Shown piece after piece: positions 10,677 through 62,068 of a DNA stretch of 64,000 nucleotides. Source of the stretch: Lachnospiraceae bacterium (GTDB lineage: Bacteria; Bacillota; Clostridia; Lachnospirales; Lachnospiraceae); the NCBI GenBank assembly GCA_017622845.1, contig JAGAQJ010000074.1, positions 1 to 64,000 on the forward strand, in the 5' to 3' direction. The position numbers and the translations under genes were made by a program. The number at the start of each line of letters is the position of its first letter. The first letter of the stretch is position 1. The notes below the pieces were generated by a model that saw nothing but the letters and a program-made list of their open reading frames with translations, searched no databases and was not told the origin of the DNA.

Positions 10677-11021
10677 GTAACAGTTCAGCCGTATGGATTA
10701 TTTTAGCCGTCCTTCTGTGTATTGACAACTGCTCCTTGTTACGGTTTCAATGAACAGAAAACGGCAGATCGTATCCTGCAGGCTGCCCGGTGGAGAATGG
10801 TGATATTTCCTTATACGATGATACATGCAGCAGGAGTAAATTTGCACGGAAGCAAATTTAGGCGAGACGGAGGCATGGATGCCGACTCGAGCCGGCTCCG
10901 TGCTCATTTGAAAGCTTTCCTCATCGTATTAGGAAATTCCCGTTCGGAACCAATGGCAGCCGGAGGGATACTGTCTGCCGTTTTCGTCCGGATAGAAATG
11001 CATAAAAGGCTGAACTGTAGC
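10677..11021 (+). mobile_element. Long-palindrome element, type 1 copy with terminal inverted repeats and target duplication
   Basis: The ends are GTAACAGTTCAGCC (10677-10690) and GGCTGAACTGTAGC (11008-11021), inverted to each other. The element is flanked by the same 7 bases, AGACAGA, at 10670-10676 and 11022-11028. Inside, 30 bases at 10758-10787 pair with 10955-10984, 10806-10821 pairs with 10921-10936 with one mismatch, and AAATTTGC (10838-10845) pairs with GCAAATTT (10852-10859). A near-identical copy lies in the opposite orientation at 41.57-41.84 kb. A 104-codon open frame over it is not considered a gene. It may be an insertion element without a transposase gene, a structured RNA gene, or both. 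Confidence 0.75.
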
Positions 11022-23922: not shown

Positions 23923-23973
23923 AACTGTTCCGTTTTTGTCCGGATAGGAATGCATAAAAGGCTGAACAGTTAC
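23923..23973 (-). repeat. Short remnant of the type 1 palindromic element
   Basis: The segment with GTCCGGATAGGAATGCATAA and GGCTGAACAGTTAC matches the outer end of the type 1 element (10985-11020). The large hairpin core is missing. It fills most of the gap between the HPr-like gene and the helicase gene. Confidence 0.65.
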
Positions 23974-39823: not shown

Positions 39824-41567
39824 AAAACCAAAAAACCGCCGGGGAACGATACGGCGTCTGATGGGATATCTGATGCAGTACCGGTATTGGCTGCTGCTGG
39901 CATTTTTCCTTACGATAGGGAGCAACCTGCTGGCGCTTGTGGGACCGATGCTGTCCGGGTATGCAATTGATGCGATTGAGCCGGGGAAGGGGAGCGTGGC
40001 GTTTGGCCGCGTGTTTTACTATGCAGCGCTGATGGTGCTGCTGTATGCCGTGTCCTCCGTCTTGTCTTATCTGCTGTCGGTGCTTATGATTTTTATCAGC
40101 CGGAAGGTGGTGTATCAGATGAGAAAAGATGTCTTTGACCGTCTGATGGATTTGCCTGTCGGCTACTTTGACACACACCAGACAGGTGATATCATCAGCA
40201 GGATATCATATGATATTGATACAGTGAACACATCACTTTCGAATGATCTGATACAGATATTGACGACGGTGATTACTGTACTGGGTGCGCTTGCAATGAT
40301 GGTGGTTATCTCGCCGGGACTGGTGCTGATATTTGCTTTTACGGTGCCGCTTTCCATGGTATTGACCAGAATGATTACACGAAAAACACGTCCGATGTTC
40401 CGGCTTCGTTCTCAGAAGCTTGGTGAACTGAACGGCTTTGTCGAGGAAATGATATCCGGTCAGAAGACGCTGAAAGCATATTGCCAGGAAGCAAATACGG
40501 TTGAACGGTTTGACGCGAGAAACGAGGAGGCGGTAGAAACATATTACAGAGCCGAGTATTACGCGAGCGTGGTAGGTCCGACGGTGAATTTTATCAATAA
40601 TCTGTCGCTTTCTCTTGTCAGTGTGTTTGGCGCACTGCTGTTTTTAGCAGGCAAGATGGGTGTCGGCAGTATTTCGTCCTTTATTTTGTATTCGCGCAAG
40701 TTTTCGGGACCGATTAATGAAGCGGCAAATATCATGAGTGAGCTGCAGTCAGCGCTTGCGGCAGCAGAGCGTGTATTTTCCATGCTAGATGAGCTTCCGG
40801 AGGAAGCGGACAGAGAGAATGCACTGACGCTTACAAGGGCAGAGGGAGATGTGAAACTGCAGAATGTGAGCTTTGGATATGAAAAAGATGCGCTGATTAT
40901 TAAGGGGCTGAATCTTCATGCGAAGCCCGGAAGGCTGGTGGCAGTTGTAGGACCGACAGGCGCCGGAAAGACGACCCTGATTAATCTTCTGATGCGTTTT
41001 TATGATGCGAATGAAGGGAGCATCTGTGTAGATGACAGAGAGATTCACGATATCACACGTGCCAGCCTGCGGAAAGCTTATGCGATGGTTTTGCAGGACA
41101 CATGGCTGTTTCAGGGGACTATTTTTGAAAATATTGCCTACGGAAAAGAAAATGCAACCCTTGAGGAGGTGACAGAAGCAGCGAAGGCAGCAAGGATTCA
41201 TTCCTATATTAAACATCTTCCAATGGGGTATGATACGGTGCTTACAGATGACGGCACAAATATTTCCAAAGGACAGAAACAGCTTCTTACGATTGCAAGA
41301 GCGATGCTTCTGGATTCCCATATGCTGATTTTAGATGAAGCGACATCCAATGTGGATACCAGAACAGAACAGCAGATTCAGCAGGCAATGCGAAAGCTCA
41401 TGGAACACAAGACCTGCTTTGTCATTGCCCACCGTCTCTCGACGATACAGAATGCAGATGAGATATTGGTGGTAAATCATGGCGAGATTGCAGAGAGGGG
41501 GACGCATGCAGAGCTGATGGCGCAGAAGGGATTCTACTACCAGATGTACCGGGCGCAGTTTGAGTGA
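39798..41567 (+). CDS. ABC exporter half-transporter, catalytic-site subunit
   Basis: A 589-residue partner of the preceding gene. The N-terminus is basic (EKQKKYEKPKNRRGTIRRLM), then come six helices and the ATPase with Walker A GPTGAGKTT, altered signature ISKGQKQLLT and Walker B LILDEATSNVD with the catalytic Glu. GGGAG precedes ATG 39798. The stop codon is at 41565-41567, only three bases before a repeat element, whose insertion has thus become the 3' end of this operon. Confidence 0.92.
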   Translation: MAEKQKKYEKPKNRRGTIRRLMGYLMQYRYWLLLAFFLTIGSNLLALVGPMLSGYAIDAIEPGKGSVAFGRVFYYAALMVLLYAVSSVLSYLLSVLMIFISRKVVYQMRKDVFDRLMDLPVGYFDTHQTGDIISRISYDIDTVNTSLSNDLIQILTTVITVLGALAMMVVISPGLVLIFAFTVPLSMVLTRMITRKTRPMFRLRSQKLGELNGFVEEMISGQKTLKAYCQEANTVERFDARNEEAVETYYRAEYYASVVGPTVNFINNLSLSLVSVFGALLFLAGKMGVGSISSFILYSRKFSGPINEAANIMSELQSALAAAERVFSMLDELPEEADRENALTLTRAEGDVKLQNVSFGYEKDALIIKGLNLHAKPGRLVAVVGPTGAGKTTLINLLMRFYDANEGSICVDDREIHDITRASLRKAYAMVLQDTWLFQGTIFENIAYGKENATLEEVTEAAKAARIHSYIKHLPMGYDTVLTDDGTNISKGQKQLLTIARAMLLDSHMLILDEATSNVDTRTEQQIQQAMRKLMEHKTCFVIAHRLSTIQNADEILVVNHGEIAERGTHAELMAQKGFYYQMYRAQFE

Positions 41568-41587
41568 GTGTAACAGTTCTGCCTTTT

Positions 41588-41838
41588 ATGCATTAACATC
41601 CGGACGAAAACAGCAGATAGTGTCCTTCTGGCTGCCATTGGTTCCGAATGGGAATTTCCTAATACGATGAATTAAGGCTATCTAATGAGGACGGAGCCGG
41701 CTCGAGTCGGCATCCATGCCTCCGTCTCGCCTAAATTTGCTTCCATGCAAATTTACTCCTGATGATTTATCATCGTATAAGGAAATATCACCATTCTCCA
41801 CCGGGCAGCCTGCAGGATACTATCTGCCGTTTTCTGTT
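41588..41838 (-). repeat. Type 1 palindromic unit, inverted copy of 10745-11005
   Basis: Read on the minus strand it follows the 10.7-kb element almost base for base, including CTCGAGCCGGCTCCGT, AAATTTGC/GCAAATTT, and the outer helix AAAACGGCAGAT with its partner. Differences cluster in the loop after the CTCCGT helix, where the 10.7-kb copy has TTTGAAAGCTTTCC and this one a different stretch. Confidence 0.8.
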
Positions 41839-41876
41839 CATTGAAGCTGTAAAACGGAACAGTTTTCAGTACACAG

Positions 41877-42105
41877 AAGGTCGGCAGTCCTATGCCGGAA
41901 CAGGCTGGCGGAGAATGCTGACATTTTCTTATGGGTGATTCGATACATCAGCGAAAATCCGCACGGACGCGGATTTAGGACGAAACGCGTCCATGGACGG
42001 CGCGTAGAGTCCGGTCGCGGACGCATTCAAAGACTTTGGCATCGCCCATTAGAAAATTCGCATTTGGAGTCCAACCGCCTGTTCCGGCATAGGACTGCCG
42101 ACCTT
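41877..42105 (+). repeat. Type 2 palindromic unit, possible structured RNA
   Basis: The outer helix is a perfect 29-bp inverted repeat (41877-41905 with 42077-42105). Helix 2 is 41924-41939 with 42041-42056, two changes. Helix 3 is AAATCCGC (41955-41962) with GCGGATTT (41969-41976). GCGTCC/GGACGC helices lie in the middle. Compared with type 1, helix 3 differs at three base pairs with both sides changed, while GGAGAATG, TACATCAGC and the TTTAGG after helix 3 stay nearly the same. This pattern indicates selection on structure. Confidence 0.7.
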
Positions 42106-42254
42106 CGTCCTATTGAATCGTAAGACTGAACTGTTGCGAGTGGGTGTGCGGACCGCAAAAATTTGATAGACATATTTTGATTTGGTTTGTATAATGATTA
42201 TGGATAAAAGAGTTGACTGATACATAAGGGTAAAACAAGAGATGGAGAGCGGAT

Positions 42255-61712: not shown

Positions 61713-62068
61713 GGAACAATTGTCAGTACACAGAAGGGCAGCAGTCCTATGCTGGAACAGGCTGGCGGAGAATGCTGACATTTTCTTATGGGTGATTTGA
61801 TACATCAGCGAAAATCCGCATGGATGCGGATTTAGGACGAAACGCGTCCATGGACGGCGCGCAGAGTCCGGTCGCGGACGCATTCAAAAACTTTGGCATC
61901 ACCCATTAGAAAATTCGCATTTGGAGTCCAATTGCCTGTACCGGCATAGGACTGCCGACCTTCGTTTGGATTGCGTCCGCCCTATAGAAATGATTGTACA
62001 AACTGCCCTTAGTGAGCAAGCTCCCACGGTCACTTTGCACAATCATTTCTGCATGGCTGAACTGGTAC
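61713..62068 (+). mobile_element. Type 2 palindromic unit with an extra hairpin and a family end
   Basis: Bases 61713-61975 match 41856-42109 closely, in the same orientation. The outer helix has several mismatches here, while the inner helices (ATTTTCTTATGGGTGAT with its partner, AAATCCGC/GCGGATTT) are intact. After it, AGAAATGATTGT (61986-61997) pairs perfectly with ACAATCATTTCT (62039-62050) around a 41-base loop containing GAGCAAGCTC. The right end GGCTGAACTGGTAC (62055-62068) matches the family end. A clear left end is not seen; 61540-61712 is otherwise AT-rich with no gene. Confidence 0.65.

Follow-up and report, generated by a model that had tools for sequence, protein, structure and literature searches.

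A Lachnospiraceae unit, very probably a MITE, carrying two divergent TwoAYGGAY hairpins

Downstream of an ABC transporter ORF that ends at 41567 in the window, as we call the whole 64,000-nucleotide stretch of Lachnospiraceae DNA analysed here, lies a 568-bp unit that consists of two long hairpins between inverted ends (Table 1). The left copy of its flanking duplication overlaps the stop codon of the ABC transporter ORF. A first-pass annotation had described two back-to-back hairpin units with a common order of helices, and this layout is real, both hairpins matching Rfam on opposite strands. The type-1 hairpin folds on the minus strand, whereas the type-2 hairpin folds on the plus strand with arms that can be followed over 41865-41912 and 42070-42117; their cores are separated by 102 nt. 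The helix strings quoted in the annotation stand at identical offsets in the two types, and so do the stretches described as kept, GGAGAATG and TTTAGG. The outer helix of type 2 is indeed perfect, with a length of 30 bp instead of the 29 bp given. RNA folding yields z-scores of -10.2 for type 1 and -12.2 for type 2, and for each of them none of 200 shuffles was as good.

The statement that no named RNA class has this layout proved wrong, because Rfam assigns both hairpins to RF01731 (TwoAYGGAY). Both cores match model positions 1-168 of 168 above the gathering cut-off of 43 bits, and both have the same core sequence, helices and two AYGGAY-like loops as the family. When the region 41500-42250 was searched against Rfam with E up to 1, no family was found besides these two matches. 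In total, the window holds four TwoAYGGAY copies, two of them outside the compound unit.

Table 1. Coordinates of the compound unit, its parts, and the further TwoAYGGAY copies of the window
Feature	Position	Strand	Remark
Compound unit, 568 bp, very probably a MITE	41570..42137		from left to right: inverted end, minus-strand type-1 hairpin, plus-strand type-2 hairpin, inverted end
Left copy of imperfect 8-bp target duplication, GAGTGAGT	41562..41569		overlaps the stop codon of the ABC transporter ORF
Left terminal inverted repeat, GTAACAGTTCTGCC	41570..41583	+	end pattern GTAACAGTTCAGCC
Outer arm, type-1 hairpin	41606..41636		partner 41804-41834, 87% pairing
TwoAYGGAY core, type 1	41639..41803	-	RF01731, 97.9 bits
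Outer arm, type-1 hairpin	41804..41834		partner 41606-41636
Outer arm, type-2 hairpin	41876..41905		perfect 30-bp pairing with 42077-42106
TwoAYGGAY core, type 2	41906..42072	+	RF01731, 89.2 bits
Outer arm, type-2 hairpin	42077..42106		partner 41876-41905
Right terminal inverted repeat, reading GACTGAACTGTTGC along the plus strand	42124..42137	-	imperfect complement of left end
Right copy of target duplication, GAGTGGGT	42138..42145		agrees with left copy at 7/8 positions
Second MITE of the window, 345 bp	10677..11021	+	single type-1 core at 10788-10952 (+); 8-bp flanks disagree (6/8 differ)
Fourth TwoAYGGAY core of the window (type 2)	61763..61929	+	RF01731 match

The 568-bp unit is very probably a MITE, a non-autonomous DNA transposon. 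Its borders coincide with those drawn in the first-pass annotation, and the imperfect duplication is found just outside them. The inverted ends are 14 bp long and GTAACAGTTCWGCC/GGCTGAACTGTTAC-like, the right end being an imperfect complement of GTAACAGTTCWGCC, and the unit wholly contains no ORF of 80 aa or longer. Six full-length relatives with 92-93% identity occur in the genome from which the window was taken (hereafter the source genome), where dispersed copies share the terminal inverted repeats. The earlier suggestion that the unit moves is thus supported by the inverted ends, the 8-bp duplications and the many dispersed copies. At up to one mismatch the end pattern GTAACAGTTCAGCC has 289 occurrences in this genome, compared to none for the reversed-pattern control. 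From the ends we obtained 41 candidate intervals, some of which are wrong pairings or short hairpin-less units; 15 of the 41 have 8-bp flanks that agree within one mismatch (8 exactly), where 0.03 would be expected from mismatched partners. The duplication length is fixed at 8 bp, with no interval reaching 9 bp or more, and a good duplication is missing in 26 intervals, the 345-bp unit of the window among them. Window positions 23973, 48844, 52536, 56235 and 62068 each have one more lone end of this transposon family, belonging to remnants or to units of other subtypes.

The insertion site can be viewed from the neighbouring gene. In 24 of 37 relatives from the same genus, homologues of the ABC gene can be aligned as far as window position 41563-41570, where the alignment ends, and the alignments of two weaker homologues (G004 and G028) stop at 41574. 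Queries made of joined flanks, 80 altogether, yielded no clean empty site: a single one gave a spanning hit, which was ambiguous and fell on its own locus.

Overall, the source genome, whose assembly is incomplete (95.3%), contains 102 RF01731 matches. Several of its contigs have a TwoAYGGAY unit at or close to their start or end (for example C34:107, C38:183 and C73:183), as expected of repeats, so that the true copy number may exceed 102. Neighbouring matches at most 2 kb apart form 18 pairs; 17 of these lie on opposite strands, all 17 divergently, and in 11 the cores are 102-103 nt apart. There are also shortened forms that contain a single hairpin or none. A 79-bp derivative (L097) has lost both hairpins and is flanked by an exact duplication, which indicates that the hairpins may be dispensable for this transposition. 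A MITE of about 137 bp with the same ends and no TwoAYGGAY recurs in G010 and G032 (L116, L120, L130, L131 and others); at L131, one such element is inserted at the end of another.

Concerning the moving enzyme, we propose that a transposase, probably of the cut-and-paste (DDE) type, would act in trans at the 14-bp ends, generating the 8-bp target duplications. That it is IS66-like is a guess: the combination of GTAA ends and an 8-bp duplication presumably resembles IS66, and IS66-type MITEs have ends beginning with GTAA and 8-bp duplications as found here, but the source genome has no IS66 transposase match. Neither PF03050 nor PF00872 is matched in it. No transposase with these ends was present in the loci scanned, whose ORFs were partly identified in the 95.3% assembly. 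Inward stretches behind other ends were followed in 20 regions of the source genome and yielded 10 identified ORFs, nine of ordinary families and one without family; they were also inspected in 20 regions of two relatives, with the ORFs listed. An IS66-derived MITE finds no support: PF03050 is absent from the source genome, and none of the relatives' 10 IS66 loci, several of which are cut by contig ends, has both ends. At one IS66 locus (L111) a single end-like stretch inside an open frame was taken for chance. IS256-type loci have none of the ends, and a 2.4-kb candidate from a public genome (L263), which encodes a 559-aa ORF without Pfam match, was dismissed as its left end is part of a short unit. 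GTAA ends combined with an 8-bp duplication are seen in an IS66-type element (L106) from another family of the order, which has GTAAGCGTC ends and the exact duplication GTTCCATA.

Among 60 genomes, RF01731 was found in 12, namely the source genome plus 11 of its 35 relatives from the same genus, with copy counts per genome that are lower bounds (up to 38 candidates were scored in each). Across the order, 22 of 295 genomes have matches, which pass the cut-off in 18 genomes; two or more matches were counted in 18 of the 22, the counts again being lower bounds from at most nine scored per genome. The 14-mer end is present in 31 of the 60 genomes, all from the same genus, and in none of the 24 outside it. 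In public genomes it was recovered in at least 118 stretches, most with Lachnospiraceae in their titles and some from unrelated phyla, the latter likely by chance. At these public loci at least 54 short intervals have an 8-bp duplication within one mismatch, loose ends being allowed. Plasmid and phage collections gave no match to the unit, and a search of viral contigs with three exact patterns returned one 18-mer hit without RF01731 match.

The hairpin is also associated with a second type of end. Three further species of the genus (G009, G019 and G026) carry the hairpin singly, within units of 304-340 bp that have the ends GATTAGGGTGTCAAAAG. A 7-bp duplication within one mismatch borders 6 of 10 GATTAGGGTGTCAAAAG intervals, with 0.33 expected, and one interval has an exact 9-bp duplication; the ten include three 153-bp units of G020 without hairpin and one alternative boundary. 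Considering the six hairpin-bearing units separately, three have 7 bp, one has 9 bp and two have none. In a further genome, G029, ten sampled copies show by eye palindromic arms, many with AG/CGYCC-like feet, and flanks that differ; a terminal repeat accompanied by a duplication could not be made out convincingly in them. Copies L373-L375 (G217) possess long hairpin arms with one side purine-rich and the other pyrimidine-rich.

In another genus, g34, copies within L358-L397 (e.g. L368 and L390) have TwoAYGGAY at the centre of copy-specific inverted repeats, whose aligned arms measure 44 to 167 nt in the copies standing out from shuffles. By eye, L358, L361 and L362 have an inner element in common, each flanked by its own palindrome. 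Nine of 15 g34 copies examined passed an earlier arm test, and their arms are unlike one another. A second test on 32 copies, from which L389 (an orthologue of L363) and the contig-cut L379 and L386 were excluded, compared the flanks 200-300 nt from the core: complementarity was above the 99% level of the mismatched-partner control in 21 copies and exceeded every control in 19; the count at 320-420 nt is one copy. The same kind of question put to the source genome gave no inverted flanks above the 95% control in 13 units. Searches with a g34 arm against plasmids (from L378) and with a stretch overlapping one arm against phages (from L390) gave no match.

The explanation that we consider probable for the locus is a MITE moved in trans, whose cargo is two divergently placed TwoAYGGAY hairpins. 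Since the core is found both in units whose ends are of two unrelated kinds and within the copy-specific palindromes of g34, it would represent a portable module. Across all copies, the best reading is that of a conserved hairpin module which mobile or palindromic DNA has carried, or received as an insertion, again and again. More tentatively, and in our view with less than even odds, the role of the hairpins may be that of a fold kept for the life cycle of mobile DNA and not for the regulation of neighbouring genes. The still broader view, in which TwoAYGGAY as such is a portable mobile-DNA hairpin module and not a host RNA, found with unrelated transposon ends and at the centres of g34 palindromes, is a speculative and on balance doubtful one. 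If true, TwoAYGGAY would either target hairpin tips or seed an inverted duplication of flanking DNA. To our knowledge, such target choice or palindrome growth belongs to no described element.

These considerations bear on an RNA family candidate that has been without function since 2010, is typed as cis-regulatory in Rfam and is now tied to mobile DNA. The tie would explain the patchy, high-copy distribution of TwoAYGGAY and offers it a testable function, which is mobility and not regulation. It also holds a caution, since palindromic mobile DNA can yield strong covariation. A search of the literature accessible to us found no paper that calls TwoAYGGAY mobile or ties it to mobile DNA. In their accessible parts, publications on the family treat it as a probable RNA or a candidate CsrA sponge and are silent on inverted ends, target duplications, the divergent pairs and a copy number of about 100 in one genome. 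The 2010 discovery table, as far as accessible, lists it with 'y' for RNA and 'n' for switch (PMC2864571); excerpts of other papers use it as an example of a covariation-extended helix (PMC7657543), give two added covarying pairs (PMC11701678) and discuss the stability of its loops (PMC11661157). A related case is provided by IStrons, described in the accessible text of PMC4227781 as structured RNA on a transposon. The likeness lies in a structured element riding on transposons; the difference is that the TwoAYGGAY pair accounts for all Rfam matches of our region.

Does selection act on the fold, and on which nucleic acid? Covariation was tested by shuffling in 38 copies, which come from 12 genomes, and is strong: 31 of 37 pairs show it. 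Of the alignment cells, 94.7% pair compared to 65.3% after shuffling, and both sides have changed in 413 cells versus 118 in shuffles; the number of further pair types (87 versus 81.6) is not clearly raised, as 40 of 500 shuffles reach it. The first-pass annotation was right about the covarying helices; for action as RNA, the G-U and A-C counts and the gene orientation give no consistent support. In strand-symmetric arm alignments, G-U and A-C cells number 102/89 for type 1, 48/46 for type 2 and 49/37 for the relatives, which correspond to 43/32, 18/27 and 26/26 distinct events, respectively; the outer arms of nine g34 copies have 12 G-U and 19 A-C. Two zones lean to G-U, the type-1 arms (68 versus 40, p 0.009) and the relatives' core (24 versus 10, p 0.024). 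Counts on the consensus structure lean the same way (100/39 and 57/31), this structure having been chosen by a program that permits G-U. The MFE favours the plus strand in 42/54 type-1 copies, 21/38 type-2 copies and 17/29 relatives. A tRNA control (57 G-U versus 0 A-C) was dropped, as the program writes brackets solely for pairs that it accepts. According to a crude ORF caller, 22 copies are oriented like their co-directional genes and 33 opposite to them. Given no consistent G-U excess and this mixed orientation, an RNA function of the fold stays putative; the G-U-leaning zones, the type-1 MFE bias and the consensus counts leave room for selection that may act on RNA.

One way in which RNA could matter was proposed in 2014, when the accessible part of PMC4333381 described TwoAYGGAY as CsrA-binding sRNAs. 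Here, a transcribed small RNA would bind CsrA-type proteins through its ANGGA loops, and the transposon would spread a CsrA sponge. Throughout the 38-row alignment the second loop, CANGGANG, has the same C, A, G, G, A and G, but loop 1 lacks a G in L140, in L143 and in the two copies of L141. csrA-family matches accompany TwoAYGGAY in all 12 genomes of the genus that carry it. TwoAYGGAY is also present in each of the four genomes where csrA-family matches number 4 to 8 (G017, G020, G027 and G029), the other 34 genus genomes having 0 to 3. However, csrA is nearly universal in the genus (35/38 genomes), so its presence beside TwoAYGGAY says little, and the source genome with its 102 copies has one weak csrA match (57 bits). 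With weak or absent strand polarity, and 3 promoter-like matches near the unit versus a shuffled mean of 1.3, we regard a CsrA sponge as unlikely.

Slightly less credible to us are selectively neutral palindromes, in which the covariation would come from arm-to-arm copying during replication. The inner helix (columns 29-36/145-152) fits this idea, being Watson-Crick in 299 of 304 cells and G-U in 2, as does the near equality of G-U and A-C in the strand-symmetric counts. Against it, loop residues that do not pair stay unchanged in all 12 genomes. Moreover, the orthologous g34 pair L363/L389 has nearly identical arms in which the same mismatched blocks are kept, and their persistence implies that copying between arms is not rapid.

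We judge it improbable that the hairpin became mobile as folded single-stranded DNA through a Y1/HUH enzyme and was captured by TIR transposons later. The model for such a process is the REP/REPIN elements, where two inverted palindromes form one dispersed unit that is moved by RAYT enzymes. The unit of the window likewise has two inverted palindromes dispersed together, and both the arms, feet and differing flanks of the G029 copies and the copy-specific palindromes of g34 would suit this origin. Unlike REP/REPIN, it has terminal inverted repeats and target duplications, the duplications of the source genome flank the terminal repeats and not the hairpin, and Y1 (PF01797) is unmatched in 7 of the 12 TwoAYGGAY-bearing genomes of the genus, the source genome included. 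Finally, a cis-regulatory RNA of adjacent genes, suggested by the Rfam type label 'Cis-reg' and by co-directional flanking genes in 44/59 copy-bearing intergenic regions versus 23/38 others (crude ORF calling), is highly implausible in view of the opposite orientation of most co-directional cases, the cis-regulation entry 'n' in the accessible 2010 table (PMC2864571), and the unrelated neighbours that were examined in the window.
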